Shown in pieces: positions 2,998-33,097 of a DNA stretch of 64,000 nt. Both the position numbers and the translations under genes were made by a program. How positions within the stretch are numbered: the stretch's first letter is position 1; every line of letters begins with the position of its first letter. The notes under the pieces were generated by a model. That model did not search any database and was not told the origin of the DNA. It saw only the letters and a program-made list of their open reading frames with translations. The DNA comes from Blautia coccoides (GTDB lineage Bacteria > Bacillota > Clostridia > Lachnospirales > Lachnospiraceae). The DNA is taken from contig NZ_CP136422.1 of NCBI RefSeq assembly GCF_034355335.1, positions 2,173,001 to 2,237,000 of the forward strand, in the 5' to 3' direction.

Positions 2998-4908
2998 ATG
3001 AGATTATCTTCATTAGTCAGTGACGGGATGATTCTCCAGAGAGATGTAGAAAACAGTATCTGGGGATATGGTGAAAAGGGAAGAACGGTAGAACTGTCTT
3101 TTGAAAATTTTCAGGTTAAAACCATCTGTGGTGATGACGGATACTTTGAACTGATGATACCGGAAATGCCTGCCGGCGGTCCGTGGGAGTTCAGGATGAC
3201 AGATGGGGAAGAAGAACTTGTGATTCATGATGTACTGTTTGGTGATGTATTTCTTCTGGGAGGGCAGTCTAATATGGAACTGCCAATTGAGCGGGTGATG
3301 GACCGGTATGCAGATGAAATTCTGCATACTTCAGAGGATGAAATCCGCATGTTCGAAGTCCCCAAGGAATATGTATTTGGAGAAAAACGTCAGGAATTAG
3401 AAAAGGGCTGCTGGATTAAAGCGAAAGGAGAAGAACTGCAGCTGTTCAGTGCTGTGGGATATTTTGCTGCAAAAGAAATTCATGATAGGGAAAGAATACC
3501 GGTTGGACTTCTGCAGACTGCTGTGGGAGGTACACCGGTGAAATCCTGGTGCAGCGAGGAGACTGTTACAGCTCTGGGTTATGATGCTGCGGAGATTGAA
3601 GAATGCCGCCAGAAAGGATATCCGGAAGCGACCATCAAAGCGGAAGAAGAAAGAGAGCTTTGGTGGAGAAAAGAGGCGTTGAAGGAATCCGGTGTGGATT
3701 GTGCTACAGATAGTAAGGGCAGTTTTTGTATTCCGGGATTCTTTGAAAATACTGTGTTGGATCAATTTTATGGCGGATTGCGCTTTACAAAAACCTTTGT
3801 GCTGGATGAAAAAGATGAACCGGAAAAAGGAGAAGCTATTCTTTATTTCGGTGCTATGATTGATGCAGATAAGATTTTAATTAATGGCACATTGATCGGT
3901 GAGACGGAATACCAGTACCCACCCAGAATTTATCGGATACCGGAGGGAATCCTTCATGCTGGAGAAAATATCATTGAAGTAAAATTGATGGTTTTCAGAC
4001 AGGAAGGAGGCTTTGTACCTGGAAAGGTGTATGAACTTTGCTTTGGCAGTAATCTGGAGAAAAAGGTTTCTCTTTCCGGTGACTGGAATTATGAAATCAT
4101 CCACCGGATGGAATCGCTGCCTCAGATGACATTTTTCCAGTATAAAGCATGTGGACTTTATCAGGGAATGCTCTATCCCATCAGAAGATGGAAAATCAAA
4201 GGATGTTTCTTTTATCAGGGTGAATCCAATACCGGGCGGCCGGAAACCTATGAGGAGGAATTTGGCACGATGATCGAGGAATGGAGAACCCTCTGGCAGA
4301 TGCCGGATATGCCGTTCATTTTCGTTCAGCTGGCAGGATTTTCTGATGGCAAACTTTATACGAACGGCATACAGTGGGCAAGACTTCGTGAGGCACAGAG
4401 AAAAACAGCCGGTTTGCCATATGCCATGATGGTACAGGCTTATGACCTGGGAGAATACAACGATCTGCATCCTACCGATAAGAAAACAGTCGGCGTACGT
4501 GCAGCACTTGCGGCAGAAACATTGATTTATGGCAGAAACGTATCATACCGAAATCCGGAGCTTGCTGCAGCCATTAGAAATACTGGAAGTATAAAGTTTG
4601 TTTTTGAACCGTCAGGCATTGTATTGCATACAGAGAAAAGAACTCCGGATCTGAAAGAAGTACCGGGAGTTTCTCTGCGACAGGATAAGAATGAACCGGT
4701 CAGAGGTTTTGATATTATTTGTAAAGATGGAAGCAGTAAGGCAGTTGAGGGAAGACTGACAGGAGAAAATACTGTCGAAGTATCCATAACGGAAGACACC
4801 GTTGGAGTATCCTATGCATGGAATGACTGTCCGTGGGAAGCAAATTTATACAGCGATGAGGAATTGCCGGTAGTTCCTTTCCAGATTATATTTCAGGAGA
4901 TATCATAA
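2998..4908 (+). CDS. SGNH/SASA-type carbohydrate acetylesterase (CE20-like)
   Basis: Predicted intracellular esterase removing acetyl groups from xylo-oligosaccharides. The SGNH block I motif GGQSNMELPI carries the catalytic Ser, and the Asp-x-x-His element is DLHPTDKKTVG near residue 490. Between them lies an inserted jelly-roll segment (roughly residues 240-360, with YGGLRFTKTF and INGTLIGETEYQ), the arrangement known for CE20/sialate-O-acetylesterase-like enzymes. The first in-frame ATG at 2986 sits one base after AGGAG, too close for initiation. GTG 2995 or ATG 2998 (MRLSSLVSDGMILQR, the usual family N-terminus) has proper spacing, so 2998 is preferred (636 residues). It lies 21 bp after the GH3 gene, probably in one operon. 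Substrate is inferred from context. Confidence 0.75.
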   Translation: MRLSSLVSDGMILQRDVENSIWGYGEKGRTVELSFENFQVKTICGDDGYFELMIPEMPAGGPWEFRMTDGEEELVIHDVLFGDVFLLGGQSNMELPIERVMDRYADEILHTSEDEIRMFEVPKEYVFGEKRQELEKGCWIKAKGEELQLFSAVGYFAAKEIHDRERIPVGLLQTAVGGTPVKSWCSEETVTALGYDAAEIEECRQKGYPEATIKAEEERELWWRKEALKESGVDCATDSKGSFCIPGFFENTVLDQFYGGLRFTKTFVLDEKDEPEKGEAILYFGAMIDADKILINGTLIGETEYQYPPRIYRIPEGILHAGENIIEVKLMVFRQEGGFVPGKVYELCFGSNLEKKVSLSGDWNYEIIHRMESLPQMTFFQYKACGLYQGMLYPIRRWKIKGCFFYQGESNTGRPETYEEEFGTMIEEWRTLWQMPDMPFIFVQLAGFSDGKLYTNGIQWARLREAQRKTAGLPYAMMVQAYDLGEYNDLHPTDKKTVGVRAALAAETLIYGRNVSYRNPELAAAIRNTGSIKFVFEPSGIVLHTEKRTPDLKEVPGVSLRQDKNEPVRGFDIICKDGSSKAVEGRLTGENTVEVSITEDTVGVSYAWNDCPWEANLYSDEELPVVPFQIIFQEIS

Positions 4909-19242: not shown

Positions 19243-20970
19243 TTATTCCCTGCCCTTACTTTTTTTCTGAATCGTTTTCATCTGACTTTTCGTAATGAAC
19301 TGAAAGTCTGTTTCAAAACCGCACACTGAATGCAGAGTATCGGTTAGCTTATCCCGTGTATACAGAGGCATGAATCCCTGTTCCTGTACATCAGCAAAAT
19401 TCATGGTTTTGAGTTTGTCCAAAATCGTTTCACAAGTATAAATGTTTCCTAAACTCTTTTCCAGATAACGGTAGATGACTAATGAAAGAAAACAGATCAA
19501 AAAATGTGCTTTGATGCGTATTTCATCTTGCAGATATACAGGTCTGGCTTCAAAATCGGTTTTCATGATGCGGAAACATTCTTCGATTTCCCATCGTCCC
19601 TCACTTACTTTCAAGATATCTTTTACATCATCGTACAGCAGATCTGTTGTTACTGCATACAATCCATCATAAAGTGCTTCGTTTTCAATCTTATCTGTAT
19701 CCAGATAGTTTTTGATCTTCGCAATCTCACCATCTTCAGTAACAGCGGTCTTTCCGATAAATCTGGCTGGATCGTTTGGATTTTTTCGTTCTTTTTTTAT
19801 CTTCCCGGATTTGAGCATTTTTTCAGCACGCTCCACTTGGGTATCACGTATCGCTTTCTGATATTTGGCATATTTAGGAGAGTATGTGATGATAAGACGT
19901 TGGTGCAGGGAATGCGGAGTATAAGGCTCATCCTTATAATATAATCCAGAATCGTCTTCTGGAATCCTTGAAAGATCAACCGGTGAATCATCCGAGACAC
20001 GCTTAAAGCCTGTCTTATCCAAAGCCCAATTTTTATCCTCTTTATTTAGCTTTTTAATAGACTGAGTAACGATAAATGCCCGTTCTCCTGCATGATTGAT
20101 TCTTTTAATGGCTTCTGAACCAAGCCCTGCATCGCTGCAGTAGATAAATTTAGTGCAGCCAAAATCCCGAAGCACTTTTTCTTCCAGAGGTTTTAATGAA
20201 GTCTGTTCATTTGCATTTCCTGGGAAAAGTGAGAAAGCAAGAGGGATTCCGTCTCCATCCATGAACATTCCCATCTGTATGATTGGGTTTGGACGGTGTT
20301 CTTTGCATTTACCGTATTTTTTGTCACCATCTTCCTGCTCGAGCTCAAAGAAATAGTTTGTACAATCATAATAGAGTATCTTATCATTTCTCTTTTCAAG
20401 AAGATGGCTGTTTTTGTATACCTCAGCTTGAATAAAATCACATTCGTTTCCTAATACATCAAGAGCCCGGTATATGTCATGCAGCTGATAGGAAGGTTTT
20501 TCCAAAAATTCAGAAGCTACTTTAAATGAGGAACGTTTACTTACTGGTTCTAAAATCCTGGCATAGATCAGGTCAGAAAGAATGGCATTGATATCATATT
20601 TGAATTTATGTTTGTCCCGAAGCTTTCGGCAAGTCTTATCAAGATGAAGACGATAGTAAAAAGCCTGCGGAAAAAGATATCCTCCCCGATAAAAGGCCTG
20701 CTGATTATAATCAAGCTTTTGGTCAGCATGAAAAGTTATCTGGACAGATTTAGTCTGTTGCTCTTTTTTGTATTTTATTGTTTCCAATCTGGCTTCTTCT
20801 CTAGCCCATTTCATAACATCATCACGAGTCGGTCCGTGCTCAGGGAGTAAATCTTTGAGTGTACCAAGTTTACGGACAATCACAGAAGTACTAACCCCTT
20901 TGTTGTTGATGTATCCTTTTGAAATATAAAAGGATTCTGAATTTTTTGATTTTGATGTCGTAACTCGCAT
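19243..20970 (-). CDS. IS1634-family DDE transposase
   Basis: A 575-residue transposase of the IS4 superfamily, IS1634 group. Acidic residues of the RNase H fold are visible: LYYDCTNYFFELEQ (first Asp), FIYCSDAGLGSEAI (second Asp) and EGRWEIEECFRIMKTDFEA (Glu). The N-terminal 150 residues form the DNA-binding part, and the family's long insertion lies between the second Asp and the Glu. Length is normal and no frameshift is seen, so it may be functional. It lies on the opposite strand to the xylan genes. Confidence 0.9.
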   Translation of the reverse strand: MRVTTSKSKNSESFYISKGYINNKGVSTSVIVRKLGTLKDLLPEHGPTRDDVMKWAREEARLETIKYKKEQQTKSVQITFHADQKLDYNQQAFYRGGYLFPQAFYYRLHLDKTCRKLRDKHKFKYDINAILSDLIYARILEPVSKRSSFKVASEFLEKPSYQLHDIYRALDVLGNECDFIQAEVYKNSHLLEKRNDKILYYDCTNYFFELEQEDGDKKYGKCKEHRPNPIIQMGMFMDGDGIPLAFSLFPGNANEQTSLKPLEEKVLRDFGCTKFIYCSDAGLGSEAIKRINHAGERAFIVTQSIKKLNKEDKNWALDKTGFKRVSDDSPVDLSRIPEDDSGLYYKDEPYTPHSLHQRLIITYSPKYAKYQKAIRDTQVERAEKMLKSGKIKKERKNPNDPARFIGKTAVTEDGEIAKIKNYLDTDKIENEALYDGLYAVTTDLLYDDVKDILKVSEGRWEIEECFRIMKTDFEARPVYLQDEIRIKAHFLICFLSLVIYRYLEKSLGNIYTCETILDKLKTMNFADVQEQGFMPLYTRDKLTDTLHSVCGFETDFQFITKSQMKTIQKKSKGRE

Positions 20971-21196
20971 AAAAAAATCCTCTATACCTTATTCTATCAT
21001 ATACTGCAATAAAATACAATAGATTAAAACAATAGATCAGGGTTGTTTCACGAACTATTTCAAGAGCATTTCTAACTCATACAATCTTAATTCTACATCT
21101 CCCATATTGTTTCTGTCGATCTGCTCACATAAAAAAGCGCAAATTATCCCTATCCCCTTTACAATGCCTTTTTTCAGAGATATTCTTTATACATAG

Positions 21197-22537
21197 TCAA
21201 TACAGACCGGCTATGCCTTTAAACACATATCGTTCTCGCAAGTCTGCGTTGTCACAAAAACAGTCCATCATTTCTGTCATTATATTTGTGATACCTGTCT
21301 CGTGCATTGCCAGACGCAGGATGTTATATGCATATTTTCTGATGAGCGCCAGATTATTTCGGGATTTTTTGGCAGGTGAGCGATCTTCCCTGAATGTGTC
21401 GTCCAACACATGATGGAGCCGGTTTTCTATTGACCAGTGCATTCTTTTTATGCTGCCCAGCTCCTCTGCGGTAAGAATAAGGTCTGTTATCAGTGCGGTA
21501 CACTGAATATCCTTTCCGACCCCTTCTTCCGCAGATGGTCCTGGAACTCTTCTGGATCCTTTTTTCATAAACTCTTCCCTGGATGGAGTGACATCGTTCT
21601 TCTGGCTGTCCTTTTCAACCGGCACTCTTACCTGCTTGATCCGTCCAATACTCTGAACGTTCGCCCATTCTTTTCGGCTTTTGGTCAGGTTTGAGGCATC
21701 TTTACATATTTGACAAGTCCTATACTCATTTCTGTCCCGATTTTTTTCCATCTGACTGATTTCTTCATATTTCTCAAGATACTCCCGCATTACAGGATCT
21801 GTAGTTTCGCCTTTTTTCTTTTTAGCAGTTTCCGCTTCCAGTTTGTCCATGAACGTATGGATCTCCTCATAAGCCTCTGGTTGGTTTTTCTTTACTGTCA
21901 GCACAAAATGTCCTTCCTGTTCATGGATCTGGTCCATGATTGCGGTCTGCGTTCCAATCGCATCAATCGTTATAATACTTCCACTGATATCCAGAAGTTT
22001 CAACAATTCAGGAATCACCGCAATCTCATTCGTCTTTGAATCTACAGGAAGCTGTGCAAGCAGCAATCCCCGGACAGTTTCCACGACGTTCAAAATCATT
22101 GGAGTTGCCGCACATTTTGTCTTTTCCGTTGCGCCACAGAGTGCTTTCCCGTCAATTGCAAGATGGGTATTCTTCGAGTCCACGATTTCTCCAATCCATT
22201 CCATAAAAGCACACAAGGCTAATTCCTCATCAATTCCGCTCAGCATCCGACTAATCGTGGAAGGCGAGGCGATCCCGTATTTCAATTCCATATGTTTCCG
22301 CAGCCATTCCAGGTTATGTTTGCACCAGTTAAGACTCCTGCGGATCGTTGTCCTGCCACAAAGAAATCCGATTGTGACACATACCAGCATTTCTGCCAGA
22401 TCGTGTCTTTTCTCTCTGTTGCATCGATAATCTGGAATCTGCCTGAAATAATGAATCAGTTTTTCTGTCAGAAATGGTTTTTCAGCACATTTCCAGAGCC
22501 ACCTGTATTTTCTCCAGAAGTTCCTGCTGTTCCTCAT
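21197..22537 (-). CDS. ISAs1-family DDE transposase
   Basis: 446 residues as the longest frame; translation may begin somewhat downstream, near FLTEKLIHYFRQIPDYR. The catalytic acids can be seen in HLAIDGKALCGATEK, SIITIDAIGTQTAIMD and SIENRLHHVLDDTFREDRS. LTVKKNQPEAYEEI is a family hallmark. The 5' end overlaps the upstream gene on the same strand by 56 bp, suggesting translational coupling. No disruption is visible. Confidence 0.9.
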   Translation of the reverse strand: MRNSRNFWRKYRWLWKCAEKPFLTEKLIHYFRQIPDYRCNREKRHDLAEMLVCVTIGFLCGRTTIRRSLNWCKHNLEWLRKHMELKYGIASPSTISRMLSGIDEELALCAFMEWIGEIVDSKNTHLAIDGKALCGATEKTKCAATPMILNVVETVRGLLLAQLPVDSKTNEIAVIPELLKLLDISGSIITIDAIGTQTAIMDQIHEQEGHFVLTVKKNQPEAYEEIHTFMDKLEAETAKKKKGETTDPVMREYLEKYEEISQMEKNRDRNEYRTCQICKDASNLTKSRKEWANVQSIGRIKQVRVPVEKDSQKNDVTPSREEFMKKGSRRVPGPSAEEGVGKDIQCTALITDLILTAEELGSIKRMHWSIENRLHHVLDDTFREDRSPAKKSRNNLALIRKYAYNILRLAMHETGITNIMTEMMDCFCDNADLRERYVFKGIAGLY

Positions 22538-23033
22538 TAACTTTTGAAATGATTTCAGTTTTATCCAGACATACTAAATAGATTGTCTCTAACTTATGCA
22601 GTTCTTCCAGACCCACGCCCCATTTTTTATATATTCTGCGGGACAAAGACGATATCTGAGCTGCAAACTGATAACGAAAATCCGATTCTTTTTTCATCGT
22701 TCGTTTTTTCTGGATATAAGAAGTTGGAGATTGCTTGAAAAGAATAATAGAAAGTACATCTTCCCAATCATCCCCTAATGGTTTTTTCCAGTCATCCGGG
22801 CACAATTCCCAGACAGTTTTTGAAAACCCGTATTCCCATACTTCTGCATCTGTTAAAGATACCTTCTTTTTGTTGCTTTGTATTACCCCTTCCGGAGTAA
22901 TAATGCCGATATAAGTATCGACCGGCTGCGGATATTTTTTCCCTTTTACACGCCGGGATGTTCTTTTATAAAGGTAATAAGAATCCCCCTTTTTTTCACG
23001 GTAGTTCCCTTTACACGGTGTTTTTGAACCCAT
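22482..23033 (-). CDS. Accessory protein of the ISAs1-type element, unknown function
   Basis: A 183-residue protein in front of the transposase, in the same direction, overlapping its 5' end by 56 bp. It is basic at the N-terminus (YREKKGDSYYLYKRTSRRVK). A segment DTYIGIITPEGVI resembles the strand-rich N-terminal region of DDE transposases such as IS1634 types. The C-terminal third is rich in Glu/Gln and probably helical (KVNEEQQELLEKIQVAL). It could be a DNA-binding helper or target-selection factor; no firm family was recognised. Confidence 0.6.
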   Translation of the reverse strand: MGSKTPCKGNYREKKGDSYYLYKRTSRRVKGKKYPQPVDTYIGIITPEGVIQSNKKKVSLTDAEVWEYGFSKTVWELCPDDWKKPLGDDWEDVLSIILFKQSPTSYIQKKRTMKKESDFRYQFAAQISSLSRRIYKKWGVGLEELHKLETIYLVCLDKTEIISKVNEEQQELLEKIQVALEMC

Positions 23034-23115
23034 TCTGGATATTTTTTCTCAGTTACTGGCATAATGTCCTCTCCTTTTCATATAGGTGGTACATACCTAT
23101 ACTTTATAGACATTA

Positions 23116-23311
23116 CAGAATAAACGCATGAATGATAATTCCTTTAAAGTCTATCTTATAATTGGCATTATTTCCGATGCAATCTGTATGCGAAACCGAC
23201 TAAATCTATCTTGTAACACACGATTACGTACATTTTGTGGAATTAGAAAATATAAATTCATACAAAAATATTTTATTACAGGTGCTAATTTCTGTTCATG
23301 CGTTTATTCTG
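23116..23311. mobile_element. 196-bp MITE nested inside the ISAs1-type element
   Basis: CAGAATAAACGCATGAA (23116-23132) and its exact reverse complement TTCATGCGTTTATTCTG (23295-23311) bound a short AT-rich non-coding segment. A perfect 10-bp direct repeat ATAGACATTA lies immediately outside (23106-23115 and 23312-23321). Perfect 17-bp ends, a target duplication and no coding capacity define a miniature inverted-repeat element. The CAG terminus suggests mobilisation by an ISAs1-like transposase. Confidence 0.85.
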
Positions 23312-23342
23312 ATAGACATTATACCTCTACTTGACCTAAAAG

Positions 23343-23385
23343 TCGAGGGTTATACACGCTTATGTATAGCATATATAACCCTCGA
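23343..23385. terminator. Strong hairpin in the ISAs1 element's right end
   Basis: TCGAGGGTTATA (23343-23354) pairs with TATAACCCTCGA (23374-23385). No long T-run follows. It lies upstream of the accessory gene and may block transcription entering the element. Apart from this hairpin and the MITE, 23034-23435 has no gene. Confidence 0.5.
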
Positions 23386-23584
23386 TGAAATCTGATCTTT
23401 TTAGAATTTTAAAATATCTTCATGAAACAACCCTGACAATAGATTTGACACAAAAAAAGCAGGTTTTATGCGACCTGCAAGTACTTTTTCTATAATTCAA
23501 CTGTCAAACTCCCGCGTACACTGGTTGCGTATTTTCCTGATTTGGATTATACTTAAACTATCAGGAGAAAGGAGGAACGATTGT

Positions 23585-23926
23585 ATGCCACAAACAATTC
23601 AAACACTGCTTACTCAGTATTTATCAGAAGTACAAAAGATTTACGGTGCACATCTCAAGAGCGTTATTTTATATGGTTCCTATGCAAGAGGTGATTATTC
23701 ATCCGATTCTGATGTCGATATCATGTTGTTGGTGGATCTGACGCCGGAAGAAATGGATCCTTACTCCGATGCATTGTCGGAACTGGGATATGAGTATAAT
23801 GTAAACTATGATATCTGGATGATGCCGGTTGTGAAAAACCTTCAGCATTTTAAGCAATGGGCAGCAGCATATCCGTTTTATACCAATGTACAGAAAGAAG
23901 GGGTGCTTTTATATGAAGCAGCCTGA
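23585..23926 (+). CDS. MNT-domain nucleotidyltransferase antitoxin
   Basis: A 113-residue minimal nucleotidyltransferase. The family motif GS-x10-D-x-D is present as GSYARGDYSSDSDVD near residue 31. In characterised HEPN/MNT pairs this protein neutralises the HEPN toxin by AMPylation or binding. The start is set at ATG 23585 because it follows AAAGGAGGAACGATTGT; upstream in-frame sequence belongs to an insertion-sequence border. Its 3' end overlaps the HEPN gene by 14 bp. Confidence 0.85.
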   Translation: MPQTIQTLLTQYLSEVQKIYGAHLKSVILYGSYARGDYSSDSDVDIMLLVDLTPEEMDPYSDALSELGYEYNVNYDIWMMPVVKNLQHFKQWAAAYPFYTNVQKEGVLLYEAA

Positions 23927-24347
23927 TTCGTTGGATGTTGGAACAAAAATGGATGTGGTCCGTCATCGTTTAAATGTTGCAAGAGAAGACCTGGATACGG
24001 CTAATCTTACATTTGAGGCAGGGCAGTATCGAGCAGCCAATAACCGTGCATATTATAGTATCTTTCATACCATCTGTGCGGTGCTTGCAAAAGAGGGTGT
24101 TGCTTTTAAACGACATAAGGATACGCTCAGCTACTTTAACAAAAATTATGTACAGCCGGAGATTTTTCCTCGTGAACTGGGAAGGAAAATTGTAAAGGCA
24201 GAGGAAATACGTCATGCAAGCGATTATGATACCTTTTATATTGCTTCCAAAGAGATAACTGCACAACAGATAGAGACAGCTACAAAGATTTTAGGACTTG
24301 CAGAACAATACCTGTTTGTGGAAGAAAAACAACAGGATAAAGGGTAA
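23913..24347 (+). CDS. HEPN-domain toxin
   Basis: 144 residues from ATG 23913, which overlaps the antitoxin end and follows AAGAAGGGG. All-helical HEPN protein of the PF05168-like type. RAANNRAYYSIFHTICAVL contains an Arg and a His seven positions apart (R-x6-H), matching the RNase motif Rx4-6H. EEIRHASDYDTFY is the usual C-terminal signature. With the MNT gene it forms a toxin-antitoxin module probably acting on tRNA or mRNA. It sits beside the insertion elements and is closed by a terminator. Confidence 0.83.
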   Translation: MKQPDSLDVGTKMDVVRHRLNVAREDLDTANLTFEAGQYRAANNRAYYSIFHTICAVLAKEGVAFKRHKDTLSYFNKNYVQPEIFPRELGRKIVKAEEIRHASDYDTFYIASKEITAQQIETATKILGLAEQYLFVEEKQQDKG

Positions 24348-24361
24348 CAGGGACATTAGAA

Positions 24362-24405
24362 ACCGGTACATAGACAGAAAATAGTCTGTGTGCCGGTATT
24401 TTTTT
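24362..24405 (+). terminator. Terminator of the MNT/HEPN operon
   Basis: ACCGGTACATAGAC pairs with GTCTGTGTGCCGGT (24362-24397), followed by ATTTTTTT. Confidence 0.85.
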
Positions 24406-24507
24406 ATGGAGAAAATATCTGTGAACTATTATATGGATAATTTGTACTTTCCGATGATTTTAATGAACTTTTGGTGTCTGATTACGGACACTTTCTGAAC
24501 TTTGTTC

Positions 24508-24608
24508 TGATACAATGGTTATGCTGATGAAAGAAGGCATAGAAAACTGAATTAAATTTGAGAGACGGAAGCCTCAGTAGTTAAAAAAAGACTACTGGGG
24601 CTTTTTTT
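24508..24608 (+). promoter_or_regulatory. Short leader: extended -10 promoter and attenuator-like terminator
   Basis: TGATACAAT (24508-24516) is an extended -10 box. About 55 bp further, GCCTCAGTAGT (24571-24581) pairs with ACTACTGGGGC (24591-24601), followed by seven T's. The product would be an RNA of roughly 85 nt, either a small RNA or a leader controlling the sigma-like gene. A nine-codon frame (ATG 24521 to TGA 24550) lies in the leader but lacks a visible RBS. Confidence 0.5.
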
Positions 24609-24695
24609 CGTGCCTGAATTTCTCAGCCAATACCTGCAGGTTTTACCTGGCAGTAGTTGGTGGAGCAGGCATGAACCAGATCAGAGGACCGCCTT

Positions 24696-24731
24696 CTGAA
24701 TTTGAAACTGGCAAACAAATTTCAAATTCAG
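24696..24731 (+). promoter_or_regulatory. RBS-masking hairpin before the sigma-like gene
   Basis: CTGAATTTGAAA (24696-24707) is perfectly complementary to TTTCAAATTCAG (24720-24731). The last bases of the right arm are the first bases of the AGGAGG ribosome binding site for the gene at 24742. The 12-bp stem should hinder translation unless opened. Confidence 0.65.
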
Positions 24732-24741
24732 GAGGACGGAT

Positions 24742-25218
24742 ATGTATATTGAACACCCATATTTTGTTGGAGACAAATATTTCGCAAAGGTAGACGGCGA
24801 ATTTATAGAGATCACGAAAGAAGTGGCATATGCCATGAGTAATTTTTATCGAAGCAGCAAGCCCAGAAAAATTGAAGTAAAAAATGAAAAGGGGGAAGTC
24901 ATTGGAATGAAAAATAGAGAAATACCATTCAGCAGCACAGGAGATGAAGAAAACGATTTTTCAATAGAGGATTACCCGGATATGAGGTGCTGCGTAGAAA
25001 ACAGTGTAATTGAAAAAATCGAAGCTCAAAAGATCCATAAGGTAATCAATGGTTTGAGTCCGGAAGAAAGAATGATTATCTATGCGATTTATTTTGAAGA
25101 TAAGACACAAGAAGAATTGGCTTCAATTATGGGAGTGTCACAACAGGTGGTAGCATACCGGTTGAAGAAGATTTTGAACAAAATGCGGGAGATTTATATG
25201 AAAAATAAAAAAAGTTGA
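24742..25218 (+). CDS. Sigma-70 region 4-type regulator of the mobile element
   Basis: A 158-residue protein with a C-terminal helix-turn-helix of sigma factor region 4 type: INGLSPEERMIIYAIYFEDK, then TQEELASIMGVSQQVVAYRL (residues about 100-150). The N-terminal half is charged and lacks the region 2 signature, so it is more likely an element-encoded transcription regulator than a full sigma factor. Similar genes lie at the head of conjugative or integrative elements of Clostridia. It starts right after a 12-bp hairpin reaching into its RBS. Confidence 0.75.
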   Translation: MYIEHPYFVGDKYFAKVDGEFIEITKEVAYAMSNFYRSSKPRKIEVKNEKGEVIGMKNREIPFSSTGDEENDFSIEDYPDMRCCVENSVIEKIEAQKIHKVINGLSPEERMIIYAIYFEDKTQEELASIMGVSQQVVAYRLKKILNKMREIYMKNKKS

Positions 25219-25239
25219 AAAAAATTTTTGTAAAATCCC

Positions 25240-25740
25240 GAGTCACTTGACTTTAGTAATTAGGGAGAGTTTTAAGGACTCCTCAAAAGTACATTGACAG
25301 CTGAATATCCAGTAGTAACTGACGTGACATCTTATGCAGGGAGCACAAGGAAACTGCCGCCAAGACTCTGATGAATATCGGACGAGCGAATAAGCACTGA
25401 CCGAAAATCAACTGGCAGGTTGATGATGCGACGATCTGTATAGGGTGCGATACACTTGCGGACTGTGAAAAGTCCGTAACCGGCAAACCTATGAACTGTC
25501 GGAGCCTGCGTGCGTGAGCATTTGGGTTGTGATCTGGCGAATGCAGTCAGATAGGTTATTATTCCCTACCTGCGAAAGCAGGATAAACGATTCGGGGTAT
25601 CGAGGATAAATAGAATCGAGCGAGCACTGTTTAATAATCGAAAATTGGCTATAGAGGTTATGCGGCAGAGCGTTCAATTTGAATGACTCTGCCGTATTCC
25701 TGTGGAGCTAATAATGGATGCTTTACGATTAAATGTCAGG
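25240..25740 (+). ncRNA. Candidate large structured non-coding RNA
   Basis: The 539 bp between the sigma-like gene and the mazF-like gene has no credible coding frame but many short hairpins in one orientation. They include GCAG/CTGC (25336-25357), ATCAAC/GTTGAT (25407-25424), CGGACT/AGTCCG (25459-25476), TGC-GTGA-GCA (25511-25520), CCTGC-GAAA-GCAGG (25569-25582), CGAT/ATCG (25588-25602) and an 11-bp stem ATGCGGCAGAG/CTCTGCCGTAT (25660-25697). Two loops are GNRA tetraloops, a mark of folded RNA. Size recalls the large ornate RNAs of phages and mobile elements (for example ROOL or GOLLD), but membership is not shown. Limits are approximate. Confidence 0.45.
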
Positions 25741-25757
25741 ATGGGAGGAACAAATAA

Positions 25758-26141
25758 ATGAAAATTGAAAGAGGCGATATCCTTATGGTTAATTTGGGAC
25801 AGGTTCCGGGTACTTCCCTTCAGAGTGGAATCCGTCCGGTAGTGGTTGTCAGCAATAACAAAGCGAATACATACAGTCCGGTGGTAACGGTAGTGCCGTT
25901 TACTTCAAGGGTGTACAAAAAACGGTATCTTCCGACCCATGTGTTTATTAACTGTTATGAAATGGTTGGCTTGAAACGGCATGGGCTGGTACTGGCGGAA
26001 CAGATCACAAGCATTGATGTTCAGAGTATCATCCAAAAATGTGGTCATGTCAGTTCTGATGCAATGCGGAGGATTACCAGAGCGGTGGAGATTCAGACAG
26101 GAGTTTATGAGGAGGGGGATTATGACAGCAGAAGAATATAG
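25758..26141 (+). CDS. MazF/PemK-like endoribonuclease toxin
   Basis: A 127-residue protein of the MazF fold. The N-terminal strand IERGDILMVNLG, IRPVVVVSNNKAN, the VPFTSR segment and HGLVLAEQITSID follow the family order. Such proteins cleave mRNA at short sites. The gene has a strong GGGAGGAACAAATA site, lies just after the structured non-coding region, and overlaps the following small gene by 20 bp. No classical MazE-type antitoxin is adjacent, so the downstream gene might be its partner, or the protein may have an element-specific role. Confidence 0.85.
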   Translation: MKIERGDILMVNLGQVPGTSLQSGIRPVVVVSNNKANTYSPVVTVVPFTSRVYKKRYLPTHVFINCYEMVGLKRHGLVLAEQITSIDVQSIIQKCGHVSSDAMRRITRAVEIQTGVYEEGDYDSRRI

Positions 26142-26370
26142 AAAGTATCTGGAACAGGATTTTAGAGATGTAAATATTGATGAAATGACAGATTTACTGA
26201 CTGTGAAAGCAGACAGGAATAAAAGCCTGAAGGAACGGCGGGAATCATATCTGAATAAGGTAGGAAATCCGTATCTGGTCCGGATCGGCAATATGAAGGT
26301 CAAAGTAAGGTTTGCCAATAACGGGATATCTTTGGAGCAGGCATTTGAAAATATGCTTCTGAGTGTCTGA
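26122..26370 (+). CDS. Small protein paired with the MazF-like toxin (DUF6870-like)
   Basis: 82 residues from ATG 26122, which follows GGAGGGGGATT inside the end of the toxin gene; longer upstream reading in this frame lacks a start signal. It begins MTAEEYRKYLEQDFRDVNID and ends VRFANNGISLEQAFENMLLS, acidic then basic. It resembles small uncharacterised proteins found beside serine recombinases in Clostridia. An antitoxin role is suggested by overlap alone. Confidence 0.65.
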   Translation: MTAEEYRKYLEQDFRDVNIDEMTDLLTVKADRNKSLKERRESYLNKVGNPYLVRIGNMKVKVRFANNGISLEQAFENMLLSV

Positions 26371-26388
26371 AAAAGTACTGGAAAGTTT

Positions 26389-26440
26389 GGGGTGGCTGTG
26401 CTAAAATGTCTGTAAGGACAAATTATGCAGCCCCCTTTTA
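26389..26440 (+). terminator. Hairpin between the toxin pair and recombinase genes
   Basis: GGGGTGGCTG (26389-26398) pairs with CAGCCCCC (26428-26435), followed by TTTTA, with an inner GTC/GAC stem. It probably reduces read-through into the recombinase operon. Confidence 0.6.
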
Positions 26441-26478
26441 TTACATGGGTTTTTTGACGTAATAAGAGGAGGTAAGAT

Positions 26479-28170
26479 ATGTATCAGAATTTCAATAAAA
26501 TCTATCGTGCCGCCATCTATGTCAGATTATCCAAAGAAGATGGCGATCTTTCCAGTTCTGCAAAAATGGAAAGTAACAGCATTTCTAACCAGAAGGCTCT
26601 GATTCTGGATTTCCTGAAAGACAAAAAAGATATAGAAGTTGTTTCCGTCCGGGTTGACGATGGCTACTCAGGCTCTAATTTCGAGCGCCCTGCATTCCAG
26701 GCTATGCTGGAAGATATCAGGCGTGGGATTGTTGATTGCGTAGTGGTGAAAGATTTATCTCGGTTTGGGCGGGAATACATTGATTCCGGGAAGTACATTG
26801 AACGTTTATTCCCGGCTCTTGGTGTGCGCTTTATTGCCATAAATGACAATTATGACAGCCTTCAGGGAAAGAATCAGGCCGATGAAATTATTATCCCATT
26901 CAAAAACTTAATCAACGATGCTTATTGCCGTGACATTTCCATTAAGATCAGAAGTAACCTTGAAATTAAGAGGAAAAAGGGAGAATGTGTGACACCTTTT
27001 GTGGCATTCGGGTATCAGAAAGTTAAGGCAGACAAGCATAAGCTGGAGATTGATCCGGTTGCAGGCAGTGTAGTACAGGACATCTTTAAGATGAAACTGC
27101 AGGGAATGAGCCAGGATGCGATTGCCAACCGCCTGAATGAATTGGGTGTGCTTTCACCATTTGAATATAAGATCAGCAGCGGGAGTCATTATGAAACCGG
27201 GTTCCGACAGAAAGAGCAGGCTCTTTGGAGTTCTGTTGCGGTACGCAGAATACTGGAAAATGAGGTTTACATTGGAAACCTTGTGCAGGGGAAACGTACG
27301 ACACCGAACCATAAAGTGAAGCAGTCCTACGTAAAGCCGGAAGATGATTGGATCCGTATTGAAAAGAACCATGAGCCGCTGGTAAGTGAAAGGGATTTTG
27401 AGATCGTCCAACGGCTTTTGGGGATGGATACCCGTACTTCTCCTGACCAGAAGCAGGTGTATCTGCTGTCCGGCATTGCTGTATGTGCGGATTGCGGGGC
27501 ACCGATGACGAGAAAGGTCTCAACAGTTGGTGGAAAGAAATATGCCTATTATTTATGTTCCACAAATAAAGAAACGAAACGCTGCTCCAGTCACAGAATC
27601 CCGGAAAAAGATCTGGAAAACGTGGTATTGGTAATGCTGAAACAGCATATCCATAACATCATGCATTTGAAAAGGGTGTTGGAGTTTATCGGGACTGTAC
27701 CATTTCAGGAAATCAATGTGAAAAAACTCCAGGACAGGCTGGAAAAGAAAAAAATGGAAACAGAACGCTGTAAGGAACTCCGCATGATGCTTTATTCCGA
27801 TATGAAAGAGGGCATCGTATCAAAAGAAGATTATGTAGAACTTCATGCAGCATATGGAAAAAGGCTTAGGAATGCAGAAGAGAGTATCCGGGCAATCCAG
27901 AAAGAAATGGATAACATGTTGGAAAAAGCAGATGCTTCTAACACATGGCTGGATTATTTTGTGAAATATCAGGATATTGAAGTGCTGACCAGGACGGTAA
28001 TCGTGGAACTGATTCGGGAAATCAGAGTCCATGACAAAAAGAATATTGAGATCATCTTTGACTTTAATGACTGCTACCAGGCATTGTTGACACAGCTTCC
28101 GGCTATGGGAGTGGAGGTTGCAGCAGATCCGGATAACAATCTTCAGGTCAAGATAAAGGAGGTTGTATAA
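26479..28170 (+). CDS. Large serine recombinase 1
   Basis: A 563-residue site-specific recombinase of the TnpX/TndX-like group. The resolvase domain has the nucleophile Ser in AAIYVRLSKEDGD (near residue 18) and the arginine helix VVKDLSRFGREYIDSGKYIE. A recombinase domain follows, then a zinc ribbon (CADCGAPM with a second pair at CSTNKETKRC) and a C-terminal coiled coil. It is the first of three consecutive recombinases, with an AGAGGAGG site. All catalytic parts look intact. Confidence 0.93.
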   Translation: MYQNFNKIYRAAIYVRLSKEDGDLSSSAKMESNSISNQKALILDFLKDKKDIEVVSVRVDDGYSGSNFERPAFQAMLEDIRRGIVDCVVVKDLSRFGREYIDSGKYIERLFPALGVRFIAINDNYDSLQGKNQADEIIIPFKNLINDAYCRDISIKIRSNLEIKRKKGECVTPFVAFGYQKVKADKHKLEIDPVAGSVVQDIFKMKLQGMSQDAIANRLNELGVLSPFEYKISSGSHYETGFRQKEQALWSSVAVRRILENEVYIGNLVQGKRTTPNHKVKQSYVKPEDDWIRIEKNHEPLVSERDFEIVQRLLGMDTRTSPDQKQVYLLSGIAVCADCGAPMTRKVSTVGGKKYAYYLCSTNKETKRCSSHRIPEKDLENVVLVMLKQHIHNIMHLKRVLEFIGTVPFQEINVKKLQDRLEKKKMETERCKELRMMLYSDMKEGIVSKEDYVELHAAYGKRLRNAEESIRAIQKEMDNMLEKADASNTWLDYFVKYQDIEVLTRTVIVELIREIRVHDKKNIEIIFDFNDCYQALLTQLPAMGVEVAADPDNNLQVKIKEVV

Positions 28171-28171
28171 A

Positions 28172-29863
28172 ATGGCACGAAAAAGCAGGAAAAGCATTCC
28201 TGAAACGGTCAGCAGTGCAGCCGTCCAGGAAGAGATCAAAAGACCGTTCCGGGCAGGGTTATATGCAAGGATTTCTATGGAAACAGAGGAAACGATAGAG
28301 AGGGGGACGATAGAAACCCAGGTGGAACTGATGAAAAACTATGTGGCTGATACAGAGGATATTTCGGTTGCAGAAGTTTATAAGGATTCTGATTATTCCG
28401 GTACAAATTTTGACCGTCCTGGATTTACGCAGATGATGGAAGATATCAAGCATGGGAAAATCAACTGCGTGATTGTAAAGGATTTGTCCAGGCTTGGCAG
28501 GAATTATGTAGAAACAAGCAATTATATTGAGCGTGTATTCCCGTTCTTTCATGTACGGTTCCTGGCAGTGACGGATGATTTTGATTCTTTCCGTGAGGGA
28601 GTAGATCTGACTGTTCCCTTAAAGAATATTATCAATGAGTTCTATTCCAAAGACCTTGCAAAAAAGAGCAGCAGTGCAAAAAAAGCATTGTGGAGAGAAG
28701 GGAAATTTACCGGTGCCTGGGAACCCTATGGATATAGGAAATCAGAACAGGACAGGCACCAGCTGGTAGTTGACGAGGAAGCTGCCGGACATTTACGGGC
28801 GATTTTTTCTATGTATATGAATGGATGCAGTTACAGTGATATTGCAAAAAAACTCAACGCTGATGGCGTCTTGTCCCCAACTTTGCAGAGGGAATATTAT
28901 AGATCCGGGGAAAAGCCATCCCCAGAGTCCAAACCGTGGAATAATTATGAAGTAAAACGTGTGCTTCAGGATGTTCATTGTACCGGGGATTCCGTATATG
29001 GAAAATATCAGCAGAGCGTTTTCCAGGGAAATAAGCAGAGAAACAGACCGGAGAGTGAGTGGATCTATGCAGAGAATACCCACGAAGGGATTATAGATAA
29101 AGAGCTGTTCCGCCAGGTACAGGAAAAAATCCGGGAATTTACGGAAGAATATAAAAAGAGGCATCAGCTGAATAATGGAGCCATCCGGAGCCAGAATTTT
29201 TATACCGGCAAGATCAGGTGTGGAGGATGTGGCAACCGCATGATCCTGTCCAGAGAAAAGTCCGGAACATTTTATTATATCTGCGGTGCCAATGCAAACC
29301 ATAAATCAGGAGGAAACCAGTGCAAGGGGCACAGGGTCAAAAAAGAATACGTGGATGAAGATGTCCTTCGTCTGATCCAGTCACATATGAAAAACGTACT
29401 GGATACAGAAAAAATGATCCGGGAAATGAACTCCGCTTCCAGAAACCAGACGCAATATTTGCTTTTGGACAAGGAAGTAGGGAAATTTCGGCGGGAACTG
29501 AGCCGGATCAGTAAGCGTAAATCTGATTTATATGAGGATTATTCGGAACGCCTGATTACAGAAGAAGAGTACATGCAGTTTTCCCGTATCTATTCCAATG
29601 AAATAGAAAACATCAAGAGCCGTCTGGATGCAGTATTGACGGCGCAGGTACGGTATTCCCAAGATTATCATATCGAAGAAGGATGGGGGAAAGTGATACA
29701 TACTTATATGTCTAAGCGGAAGCTGACAAAAGAAATGGTGGATGCCTTTGTGGATTCCATTATTATCCATGGTAAGTATGATTATGAAATCAAACTGGTA
29801 TATGATGACCAGTTCGCTGAATTGCAAAAGATAATGAAAGAGAAGGAGGCACAGTCAAGATGA
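28172..29863 (+). CDS. Large serine recombinase 2
   Basis: 563 residues from ATG 28172, preceded by AAAGGAGG inside the end of recombinase 1. The nucleophile Ser is in GLYARISMETEE (about residue 37, after a basic leader absent from the others). The catalytic helix reads VKDLSRLGRNYVETSNYIE. The zinc ribbon is CGGCGNRM with CGANANHKSGGNQC. The C-terminal third is a coiled coil. It is clearly divergent from its two neighbours, so the trio is not a recent tandem duplication. Confidence 0.93.
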   Translation: MARKSRKSIPETVSSAAVQEEIKRPFRAGLYARISMETEETIERGTIETQVELMKNYVADTEDISVAEVYKDSDYSGTNFDRPGFTQMMEDIKHGKINCVIVKDLSRLGRNYVETSNYIERVFPFFHVRFLAVTDDFDSFREGVDLTVPLKNIINEFYSKDLAKKSSSAKKALWREGKFTGAWEPYGYRKSEQDRHQLVVDEEAAGHLRAIFSMYMNGCSYSDIAKKLNADGVLSPTLQREYYRSGEKPSPESKPWNNYEVKRVLQDVHCTGDSVYGKYQQSVFQGNKQRNRPESEWIYAENTHEGIIDKELFRQVQEKIREFTEEYKKRHQLNNGAIRSQNFYTGKIRCGGCGNRMILSREKSGTFYYICGANANHKSGGNQCKGHRVKKEYVDEDVLRLIQSHMKNVLDTEKMIREMNSASRNQTQYLLLDKEVGKFRRELSRISKRKSDLYEDYSERLITEEEYMQFSRIYSNEIENIKSRLDAVLTAQVRYSQDYHIEEGWGKVIHTYMSKRKLTKEMVDAFVDSIIIHGKYDYEIKLVYDDQFAELQKIMKEKEAQSR

Positions 29864-31437
29864 CAGAAAATAGGAAAACAGCTGTCTATATCCGTTTATC
29901 TATGGAAGATGAGAATGTGGATGGCAGAACCAAACTGGAAAGTGACAGTGTGACTTCTCAGAGGATCCTGTTGAAATCGTTTGTGATCGATCAGCTTGGT
30001 GTGGATGAGTCGGATATCCTTGAATATGTGGATGACGGTGTCAGCGGCACCCATTTCAAACGCAATGGTTTTCAACAGTTGCAGGAGGATATGAAAAGCG
30101 GACAGATCGGCTGTGTAGTTGTGAAAGATTTCTCCAGGTTTGGCAGGGACTATCTGGAAGTGGGATTTTATATTGAGTATATTTTTCCGCTTCTTCAGAT
30201 CAGATTTATTTCCATTAATGACAGTTATGACAGTGAAGCCAGCTCTGGAATGACCGGCGGTATGAATGTAGCTTTGAAGAATCTGGTTTATAACATGTAT
30301 AGCCTGGATTTGTCGAAAAAAATCTCATCCGCAATGCAGACCAGAATGAAAAACGGAACAAGGCTTCCGGTAAATGCCAGATATGGTTATAGAAAGGGCA
30401 AAGATGGAAGGTTGGAAATTGATCCGGATTCGGCTAAGGTGGTGAAGATGATTTTCCAGATGGCTGCAGAAGGTATGAGCTTTGCAGAGATCACAAGGGA
30501 ACTGAACAAACAGGAAATTGCCACCTGTGATGAGCAGAAAATGTCAAGAGGAGAGCAGGTTCAGTTCCGACGATTTGATACCATCATGAAAAAACGCTGG
30601 AATCCAACCACAGTATCTGCAATCATACGGGATGAGATTTATATTGGAACCCGGATATGGGGTAAAACACGCTGTAGTATGCACACCGGTCATAAGGCGG
30701 TTCTTAATGACGAGTCTGACTGGATCAGGCTGGAAAACCACCATGATCCGATTGTTGACAGGGAACTGTTTGAAAAAGCGAACAGACTGCATCCGAAAAA
30801 ATCCAGAGGTGTTGCAGAAACAAGAACCAATTATACGCTGGCAAGACGCAAGAAACAGCCAGCACTGATGCTGTGTGCACACTGTGGTCATTGTCTGGTA
30901 AGAGAAACGGAGCATCTACTGAAATGCTCGGATGGGCGTACCAGCGGTGATCATGTCTGTCGAAGCCTGGTGGTCAGACGTGAGCCAATGGAAAAGCATA
31001 TCCTGGAACTTGTTCATCAGTTTGCATCTTCCATGCTGGAAAACCGGAAGATTGTTAAATCAAAGAACCAGAGCAAAGGTATGGGGACGAATGTTGCAGA
31101 ATTGTTGAAACAGAGCCGCCAGTTGTCTTCTGAAAAAATGAGACTTTATGATGGGTACAAAGATGGTTGTATTGATCGGGAACTGTACAAGCAGAAAGCA
31201 GAAAAGATAGGCAGACAGCTGGAAGAAATCAGACGAAAGATAGCAGAGTCTGAACGTGATGCAAAGATGCTTGAGCAGGACAATACTGCGAAGGAAATGA
31301 AACTGGAAGAATTTCTGAACATGGAGAAATTCGATACAGAGAAATTACGGGAGATCATCAAGGTTATCCGGGTGCATAGCCAGGAGGAAATCGAAATTGA
31401 ATGGAATTGTGATGATGTATTTTTAGGGCAGAGATAA
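29860..31437 (+). CDS. Large serine recombinase 3
   Basis: 525 residues, starting in a 4-bp overlap (ATGA) with recombinase 2, so the three genes are translationally linked. The nucleophile Ser is in AVYIRLSMEDEN (about residue 15) and the catalytic helix is VKDFSRFGRDYLEVGFYIE. The zinc ribbon CAHCGHCL is present and the coiled coil (residues about 410-490) is long. It ends about 115 bp before the tyrosine-integrase fragment. Confidence 0.93.
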   Translation: MTENRKTAVYIRLSMEDENVDGRTKLESDSVTSQRILLKSFVIDQLGVDESDILEYVDDGVSGTHFKRNGFQQLQEDMKSGQIGCVVVKDFSRFGRDYLEVGFYIEYIFPLLQIRFISINDSYDSEASSGMTGGMNVALKNLVYNMYSLDLSKKISSAMQTRMKNGTRLPVNARYGYRKGKDGRLEIDPDSAKVVKMIFQMAAEGMSFAEITRELNKQEIATCDEQKMSRGEQVQFRRFDTIMKKRWNPTTVSAIIRDEIYIGTRIWGKTRCSMHTGHKAVLNDESDWIRLENHHDPIVDRELFEKANRLHPKKSRGVAETRTNYTLARRKKQPALMLCAHCGHCLVRETEHLLKCSDGRTSGDHVCRSLVVRREPMEKHILELVHQFASSMLENRKIVKSKNQSKGMGTNVAELLKQSRQLSSEKMRLYDGYKDGCIDRELYKQKAEKIGRQLEEIRRKIAESERDAKMLEQDNTAKEMKLEEFLNMEKFDTEKLREIIKVIRVHSQEEIEIEWNCDDVFLGQR

Positions 31438-31552: not shown

Positions 31553-31726
31553 ACACGTCCTCATACGCTACGCCATACGTTCTGCACAAGACTGGCAAGC
31601 AAGAACATGAACCCGAAAGATTTACAGTATATCATGGGGCATTCAAATATCAGTATCACAATGAACTGGTACGCTCATGCGTCCATAGATACCGCAAAAT
31701 CAGAGGTTCAGCGTCTGATTGCATAA
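31553..31726 (+). pseudogene. C-terminal fragment of a tyrosine integrase
   Basis: The frame 31553-31726 reads HTLRHTFCTRLASKNMNPKD and IMGHSNISITMNWYAHA, the catalytic R-H...H...Y end of a Tn916-type integrase, ending in TAA. The N-terminal core-binding part and the first catalytic Arg are absent; sequence upstream (31438-31552) has no homology to an integrase. It marks the junction between the recombinase element and an older integrative element. Confidence 0.85.
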
Positions 31727-31812
31727 GAAGTATTTACCACGATTTTAACCACGATTGACAGGGAAAATATAAGAAGATAAGCCTAGATATGTGAGGTTTA
31801 CCACAAAAGCAA

Positions 31813-31852
31813 AATGCCCGTAGAGCCGATAAAATAAGGCTTTGCGGACATT
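31813..31852. terminator. Imperfect hairpin after the integrase fragment
   Basis: AATGCCCGTAGAGCC (31813-31827) faces GGCTTTGCGGACATT (31838-31852), with one mismatch and two G-U pairs. Hairpins like this often follow integrase genes near the ends of integrative elements. Confidence 0.55.
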
Positions 31853-32183
31853 TAAGAAGATATAAAAAGATAGTCAAAAAGATATATATAATTTATATAA
31901 AATAAATATGGGTGTTCTGGTACATCGTTTATTAATAATTACCCTATTTACTGGTCTGATTTTTCGATAGGATAGGTGAAAAGTTTCAGTGTAGCCAGCT
32001 ACACCTATGTTTTGCACCTGCACTCTCAAAAAAACCTGATGCAGGCCAGGGTACGTACCTATGCAAACCGCGCTGACCGGGAAACATACATACAGCGGGC
32101 AGAAGACAGAAGATGAAGGTCATATGAGAGCCATAATGGAAATACATTGCGGATAGAGAGAACTTTTTATATGGGAAAATACT
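31853..32183. other. Gene-free stretch in the element border
   Basis: No intact gene. A short frame ending at the TGA near 32116 reads VRTYANRADRETYIQRAEDRR and looks like a C-terminal leftover of an element protein that I cannot name. The rest is AT-rich without clear signals. Confidence 0.4.
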
Positions 32184-32705: not shown

Positions 32706-33097
32706 AGATTCAATCCCTTCTCTTTTTATTTTAGGTGGTAAATTGTAACTATTCAATAGATATACGCATTTGCTGCACTGACTGTAAGAATACCTCTAAC
32801 AGCCGGAAAAACGTTTATCTCCAGAGGTGATTCTGCATGAGTTTTGCTTGAACCTATGAGGGTTACGGAGTAGTTGGGATAATTGTAACATAGCAGATGA
32901 TGGATCAACAAGTTAATTTGGATTTCAGTGTGAAAAACAGCCTTGTTTTTAGTATAATTTTCCGCTTTTTAAGGAATTTATGGAGGAATGGGGAATTAGC
33001 CCAATTGTAAGTGGCTATAACTATTGTTTACAGTACATCACATGTAGAAAGGTTGGCAACGATATCTAAAATCAGAATATAGAATGGAGGTTTTGTT
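32706..33097. other. Intergenic stretch without intact gene
   Basis: A short frame near 32970-33070 reads FKEFMEEWGISPIVSGYNYC and then stops, and may be a gene remnant. The ribosome binding site GGAGG of the next gene lies at the right end. No other signal was found. Confidence 0.4.

Follow-up and report, generated by a model that had tools for sequence, protein, structure and literature searches.

The gene-free stretch between a sigma-factor-like gene and pemK in Blautia coccoides probably encodes a divergent member of a family of mobile-element leader RNAs. This family includes the processive antiterminator canT of Tn916, its middle part corresponds to the Rfam motif RF02913 ('pemK RNA'), and by analogy with canT the copy described here would act in antitermination. 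The stretch occupies positions 25219–25757 of the 64,000-nt segment of DNA that was analysed (the window). It holds a real, conserved and non-coding structured RNA of about 350–450 bases, and the 5' start of the conserved unit lies closer to 25240–25288 than to 25219.

The locus and its structured RNA

The gene order on the + strand was a gene for a sigma-70 region-4-like protein (158 aa, 24742–25218; PF04545, E 4.7e-12; PF08281, E 1.2e-10), the RNA stretch (25219–25757), pemK for a PemK/MazF-like protein (127 aa, 25758–26141; PF02452, E 6.3e-25), a gene for a DUF6870 protein (82 aa, 26122–26370; PF21757, E 2.2e-23) and genes for three large serine recombinases (26479–28170, 28163–29863 and 29860–31437), all three matching PF07508 and PF00239. 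The earlier note had described some 500 nt without a gene in the setting of a MazF-like toxin and recombinases, and this description was confirmed: the only ORFs within 25219–25757 were two small antisense ones of 67 and 62 aa. From the RNA to the end of the recombinase genes (31437), the + strand contained a single terminator-like site, a weak one of 5 pairs at 28529, and no + strand terminator was called between the RNA and pemK. The left part of the shared module (24421–24741, + strand) is a putative leader or promoter region with a hairpin and T-run upstream of the sigma-like ORF. Homology of the module starts at 24421, 24436 or 24481 in the nine loci compared, two of which are the same contig. 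The hairpin with its T-run, 5' of the sigma-like ORF at about 24575–24610, was read straight from the sequence, and its function is presumed.

Directly upstream of the sigma-RNA-pemK module, positions 23570–24347 carry a nucleotidyltransferase (PF01909) and HEPN (PF05168) gene pair, likely an MNT-HEPN toxin-antitoxin module, with a strong terminator-like hairpin 3' of the pair at 24362–24397. Two transposase-like genes are located on the minus strand at 19243–22537; the gene at 21197–22537 matches DDE_Tnp_1, and that at 19243–20970 was judged transposase-like from its translation alone. A locus from a genome of the same genus (L156, genome G726) is homologous to window positions 20811–25110 with two gaps, being without the transposase region 21033–23435 and without 23990–24537, which is most of the HEPN gene. 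Its similarity ends at 25110, within the sigma-like ORF, and the RNA is absent from its contig. Repeats were found 3' of the recombinase genes at 31559–31903, 31917–32033 and 32739–32863. A repeat of 345 bp there has a 97% copy elsewhere in the same genome, and blocks of about 120 bp recur many times in diverged form, both in this genome and in its relatives. The DUF6870 ORF overlaps the end of pemK. Because locus L035 pairs PemK with a following DUF6870-like ORF (from translations) in the absence of the RNA, the DUF6870 protein could be a partner or antitoxin of the window PemK.

The + strand of 25219–25757 folded to −172.2 kcal/mol, compared with −140.5 ± 6.9 for shuffled sequences (z −4.59; 0 of 100 shuffles as good). 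The − strand likewise outdid its shuffles, by a smaller margin (−135.2 kcal/mol; z −3.04; 0 of 100), and the core 25288–25640 by itself also folded more weakly (z −2.11; 2 of 100). A consensus structure from 19 distinct relatives comprised 128 pairs in 18 helices with 99.6% of cells paired, and 13 pairs had changes on both sides. None of 500 shuffles matched the observed paired cells, two-sided pairs, two-sided cells or covariation score. On a fifth measure, further pair types, 45 were observed against 47.3 in shuffles, and 487 of the 500 shuffles reached 45. Pairing fell to 36–40% when the partner was shifted by 1–3 columns. Since most compensatory changes merely separate two subtypes, the 19 sequences hold few independent covariation events and taken alone are modest evidence.

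Independent and stronger support, for helices P1 and P2, comes from the wider family. Among 49 sequences, pairing within a sequence exceeded pairing across loci for P1 (mean score 8.82 versus 6.24) and for P2 (8.20 versus 5.24), with 0 of 10000 permutations reaching the observed value in each case. The own partner ranked best of 49 in 16 sequences for P1 and in 11 for P2, and among the top five in 28 and 40, respectively; for the window, whose P1 and P2 search intervals were set by hand, it ranked 2nd (P1) and 1st (P2) of 49. When each sequence was tested separately, at most 5 of 100 shuffles matched the helix in 29 of 48 sequences for P1 and 31 of 48 for P2. The large structured RNA proposed in the earlier note, in the orientation proposed there, was borne out, and the covariation that it had suggested looking for among homologues is present.

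Two models were used in delimiting the RNA core (canT/pemK-RNA-like; 25288–25640, + strand). R1 was built from window-type core members, the window included, and covers 25363–25624; R2 runs from the 5' element as far as the beginning of RF02913, and its match is 25288–25463. Together with the alignments, they define the core, around which conserved sequence reaches about 25240 and about 25715. The core begins with a boxA-like 5' element placed by the R2 alignment (25288–25307; family consensus TGTTCTTTGAAAACTGAATA, window form AGTACATTGACAGCTGAATA). The 5' strand of P1, AGTAGTAACT (25311–25320; consensus helix 3), and that of P2, CTTATGCAGG (25331–25340; consensus helix 5), follow, both supported by the permutation test. 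A hairpin with compensatory changes, ATCAACTGGCAGGTTGAT (25407–25424; helix 9, three pairs altered on both sides), precedes the 3' strand of P2, TCTGTATAGG (25435–25444; permutation test). The counterpart of the RF02913 core (25445–25530; R2 alignment, right end by eye) lies 153 nt downstream of the 5' element and has diverged past Rfam recognition; at its start the R2 alignment sets window GAUA----CACUUGCGGAC opposite GAUAAUGAUACUUCCGUAC. A hairpin with a GUGA loop is located at 25503–25528 (helix 12, three pairs altered on both sides). The 3' strand of P1, GGTTATTATT (25554–25563; permutation test and alignments), is followed by CCC, the family form being WATTCCC. P1 encloses most of the family RNA, and P2 ends just upstream of RF02913. 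Further 3' are the hairpin CCUGC-GAAA-GCAGG (25569–25582; helix 14) and a near-invariant, stem-closed module, UUCGGGGURUCGAGGAYAAAUNGAA (25588–25618), identified from R1 matches and motif counts. A long 3' hairpin (25643–25714; helix 18) contains an inner stem of 11 bp in which 25660–25670 pairs with 25687–25697; it is followed by no T-run, and no + strand terminator was called there. These GUGA and GAAA loops and this inner stem, all in the consensus structure, are the GNRA-capped hairpins and the 11-bp stem before the toxin gene that had been noticed from the sequence alone.

BLAST detected the window RNA in 8 of 397 genomes of the host's family (the own genome included). In an order sample of 392 genomes it detected 5 carriers, three of them new, the own genome and one other being already in the family set. 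A 19-mer search of named genomes gave 16 stretches, all 16 confirmed by BLAST, with carriers including Blautia, Dorea, Anaerobutyricum, Roseburia, Ruminococcus faecis, Frisingicoccus and one Thomasclavelia; window-type RNA therefore recurs in Lachnospiraceae and in one Thomasclavelia genome. It was also present in two viral-contig records. Another viral contig (L013), one of three 17-mer matches, was rejected as a chance match, and the phage and plasmid collections contained no DNA match to the window RNA. The 29 window-type loci reduced to 22 distinct cores of two subtypes, about 96% and 75–77% identical to the window. Copies with examined flanks kept the order of sigma ORF, RNA and PemK, usually with serine recombinases downstream, and in the alignment of the 22 distinct cores the sequence 3' of the RNA enters the first codons of a PemK-type gene. 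Two natural deletions were observed. In L007 most of the sigma ORF up to the 5' edge of the RNA is gone and the 3' hairpin corresponding to 25643–25714 is missing too; in L008/L028 a short shared repeat marks the point where the 3' end of the RNA is fused to the pemK frame.

Relation to the RF02913 family

The Rfam scan of the window gave no match, and within 24300–26500 nothing was found at E ≤ 5, with RF02913, ROOL, GOLLD, OLE and HEARO included. Genes related to the window PemK in other genomes follow a similar gap, and these gaps match RF02913, a 61-nt Rfam model of type Cis-reg. RF02913 is present, with scores over its gathering cut-off, in the relatives L037, L039, L040, L047 and L055, and also in L062, L063 and L064, which were fetched by motif. 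The earlier note had recognised no known family; this view is superseded, since relatives match RF02913 and the family includes canT. The pemK RNA motif reportedly goes back to Weinberg et al. 2017. Of 299 Lachnospiraceae genomes, 93 carried RF02913 at E ≤ 0.001 (92 above the cut-off), whereas none of 14 control genomes did. The own genome carries five RF02913 copies besides the window (L095–L099), elsewhere on the chromosome. Going by translations, a serine recombinase gene lies downstream of L095 and Tn916-type integrase genes lie downstream of L098 and L099.

R1 matched 7 of 32 sources, all seven of them RF02913 bearers, at the near-invariant UUCGGGGURUCGAGGAYAAAU block; the 25 sources without a match include at least one RF02913 bearer (L040). 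At E ≤ 0.1, it matched 6 of 76 other RF02913-type loci. The full gaps of the window-type and RF02913-type groups could be aligned, and relatives that share the 3' module of the window have RF02913 at the corresponding position. R2 was trained on 28 RF02913-type loci, including the Tn916-type copy L100 and zero window-type or L037-type sequences. It matched the window at 25288–25463 from the first to the last model position with 39.9 bits (E 7e-10; R2 E-values are rough), and the next best place in the whole window scored 12.5 bits. R2 further matched all 26 other window-type loci tried (7 + 19; 20 distinct cores) and all 16 RF02913-type loci outside the training set (8 + 8; some nearly identical to each other), and 14 further loci scored at most 8.5 bits. 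The loci tested with R2 were chosen by us and some are identical or nearly so; the counts exclude L008 and L028 (same contig, cut at the end), and L001 is the window itself. R2 did not match L102, a plasmid record in which a sigma gene is followed by erm(C). Because its RNAalifold structure holds only 7 base pairs, R2 is largely a sequence profile.

Motif counts extended the comparison. CTTTGAAAACTGAATA, with at most 4 mismatches, was located within 300 nt upstream of RF02913 in 58 of 80 loci; on the reverse strand 3 of 80 had it, and among shuffles 2.2%. Its median distance to RF02913 was 158.5 nt, and 32 of the 58 fell at 145–165. An earlier count over 420 nt had found an element like TGTTCTTTGAAAACTGAATA upstream of RF02913 in 60 of 80 loci. 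GGGGTGTCGAGGACAAAT, again with at most 4 mismatches, was present in 22 of 80 family loci, two of which (L062 and L063) were fetched by that motif, and was found neither on the reverse strand nor in shuffles. The family RNA is far longer than the 61-nt Rfam model, which represents a fragment of it, and we judge the window RNA to be a divergent branch of the RF02913/canT family that the present Rfam model misses.

Neighbouring genes were compared across the family. The 81 family loci comprised 75 from RF02913 searches (30 from the genome scan, 40 chosen by us from a longer list and 5 from the own genome), together with L037, L039 and L055 fetched via PemK, L062 and L063 via the 3' motif, and L100 via a sigma-protein search. 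The downstream ORFs picked for 80 of these loci included 19 tyrosine integrases, 18 PemK ORFs, 16 serine recombinases and 6 ParA-like ORFs; by their translations, at least 4 of the 18 PemK ORFs belong to loci fetched via PemK or the 3' motif. Picked upstream ORFs matched Sigma70_r4_2 in 42 of 78 loci. The neighbours were selected by a mechanical rule on ORF length and distance, which in Tn916-type loci skipped the small xis gene in favour of the integrase. The counts place the RNA after element regulators and before mobility genes, and 'pemK' is therefore a partial label. The family RNA is not toxin-specific; what lies downstream of it is general mobility genes and no single regulated gene.

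Correspondence with canT of Tn916

According to the published main text, canT is a 452-nt region between orf8 and xis of Tn916; it is a processive antiterminator that works in cis and in a single orientation, most probably in the form of RNA (Wirachman & Grossman 2024, PMC11658703). The Tn916-type element on plasmid pCF10 (L100) has the same gene order as Tn916. RF02913 matched L100 at 3433–3533 (E 5.9e-9), between orf8 and xis, which is the place of canT. As reported there, the mutation S3 (ATA to TGC) starts at nt 283 after the orf8 stop, and a 162-nt deletion covers nt 229–390 (PMC11658703). Since the orf8 stop ends at L100 3150, S3 corresponds to 3433–3435, the three bases with which the RF02913 match begins. 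The deletion corresponds to 3379–3540 and takes out the whole match. In the 452-bp fragment, each of the two changes is reported to leave less than 5% of the wild-type reporter expression; in a fragment of 400 bp, S3 made little or no difference, and the authors call the structure-function reading complicated (PMC11658703). The numbering was checked in L100, which carries ATA at 3433–3435. As published, the orf5 frame that overlaps this site is 83 codons long and encodes alanine at position 30, and its only two tyrosine codons both lie in the S3 motif, in agreement with the paper's account of S3. At the AUA/S3 site, R2 aligns window GAUA----CACUU to GAUAAUGAUACUU; another placement of the gap loses the first AUA.

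The fact that RF02913 sits inside canT, where S3 and the 162-nt deletion act, makes 'pemK RNA' look like the core of an antiterminator class. Our literature search found no paper linking RF02913 with canT, and the main text of the canT paper contains neither 'Rfam' nor 'pemK' (PMC11658703). Those parts of the literature found that mention RF02913 or the pemK RNA motif assign no function to RF02913; one further paper depicts pemK among predicted RNAs close to defence genes.

Possible function and known systems

By analogy with canT, transcription would start upstream of the sigma-like ORF, and the nascent RNA would fold into the 5' element, P1 enclosing P2 and side hairpins, the core and the 3' module. 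The folded RNA would turn its own RNA polymerase terminator-resistant. Only transcripts from the element's own promoter would then read through pemK, the DUF6870 gene and the recombinase genes, and stray transcripts would stop; after excision and circularisation, read-through would continue to the element's other end. For the window copy, we infer both excision of the module and action of the RNA on RNA polymerase. The added near-invariant 3' module may contact RNA polymerase or a host factor. Why read-through would be needed inside the window is not obvious, because the weak 28529 site is the only terminator-like one before 31437; any gain would come past 31437 or in the circular form. The function of the window copy may have drifted, since its core (25445–25530) has diverged. 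This divergence, the failure of RF02913 to match the window and that of R1 to match the Tn916-type loci searched count against antitermination.

A long 5' leader regulating only pemK, by attenuation, translation control or PemK autoregulation, is consistent with the Cis-reg label of RF02913, with window-type cores that run into PemK-type first codons and with no terminator being called between the RNA and pemK. We consider it unlikely, as 41 of 80 loci have an integrase, a serine recombinase or a ParA-like gene downstream and 18 have PemK, and canT is reported to work on heterologous terminators and on a reporter gene (PMC11658703). The same low share of PemK argues against an RNA antitoxin or substrate of the PemK/MazF-like nuclease in a type III-like toxin-antitoxin pair. 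The RNA does lie directly upstream of the toxin gene, and by domain matches neither of the pemK-adjacent ORFs (sigma-like and DUF6870) is a recognised MazE; however, L035 has PemK and the DUF6870-like ORF with no R1 or R2 match. Since the family RNA is mostly found beside other genes, this was rejected as the main reading and we think it very improbable, and the toxin-linked readings offered in the earlier note lose their ground.

That note had also likened the stretch to large ornate RNAs. Its size, many helices, near-invariant blocks and mobile-element setting would suit a free-standing, trans-acting RNA of the ROOL, GOLLD, OLE or HEARO kind, but no Rfam model of these families matched and the homology is to the cis-acting canT; the four families were rejected, and we give such an RNA little credence. 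A decayed gene, which the earlier note had named as a possible refutation, might be seen in a 60-aa frame that five second-subtype members (L003–L007) keep open. This frame has stops in the window, and a decayed coding gene was rejected for this reason. Compensatory pair changes, RNA helices and strand-specific motifs speak against both such a gene and a DNA-level site (attachment or transfer origin) acting without RNA; covariation largely refutes the two, and their probability is close to nil.

Returning to antitermination, we hold it somewhat likely that 'pemK RNA' constitutes the functional core of a single, large and general class of processive antiterminators in mobile elements of Lachnospiraceae and relatives, which would couple excision to expression. 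If so, about one third of the genomes (93 of 299) would carry this class, often in several copies and with branches like that of the window, and processive antitermination would be predicted in a large share of the mobile elements of gut Lachnospiraceae. The interesting part is the unification of pemK RNA with canT, of which the window copy is a divergent example. Joined in this way, the orphan motif RF02913 would gain an experimentally supported function, and canT would gain a deep comparative alignment, with the inactivating 3-nt change falling in the motif that is most conserved.

GTTCTTTGAAA of the Tn916-type canT fits boxA (GYTCTTTAANA) at 10 of 11 positions by hand count, and the 5' element of the window fits at 8 of 11; the consensus is gammaproteobacterial (PMC5725501). 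The exact boxA-like 18-mer was not present in the own genome. In the functional canT fragment of 452 bp, the first base is nt 126 after orf8 (L100 3276), so that the first 6 nt of TGTTCTTTGAAAACTGAATA (TGTTCT) are missing. Because part of the boxA-like element is absent from this fragment, a strict boxA/NusB mechanism was set back to a mere possibility, and a boxA/NusB role for the window RNA family is doubtful.

The cis-acting antiterminator RNAs put and EAR are smaller than the window RNA; EAR has an Rfam family, and the window had no such match. The put RNA of phage HK022 and EAR of Bacillus exopolysaccharide operons are described as acting with no protein factors (PMC11658703). The conAn system of pLS20, made up of the ConAn1 protein and conAn2 RNA, is alike in being reported as RNA-based processive antitermination in a conjugative element (PMC8955417). 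R2 had 0 matches in the first 50000 of the 65774 bases of pLS20, and homology of the window RNA with conAn was rejected.

The closest comparison is with canT. The window RNA differs from it in the diverged core (25445–25530) and in its 3' UUCGGGGURUCGAGGAYAAAU module, which the Tn916-type copy is without, and it is followed by pemK and serine recombinase genes, whereas Tn916 has xis and int. The two RNAs are alike in lying after a sigma-like gene and before recombination genes on the same strand, and the 452-nt canT fragment is of the same length class as the conserved unit of 350–450 nt in the window. They have the 5' element and the P1/P2 architecture in common, and their homology is seen through the R2 family model, which has L100 among its 28 training sequences.
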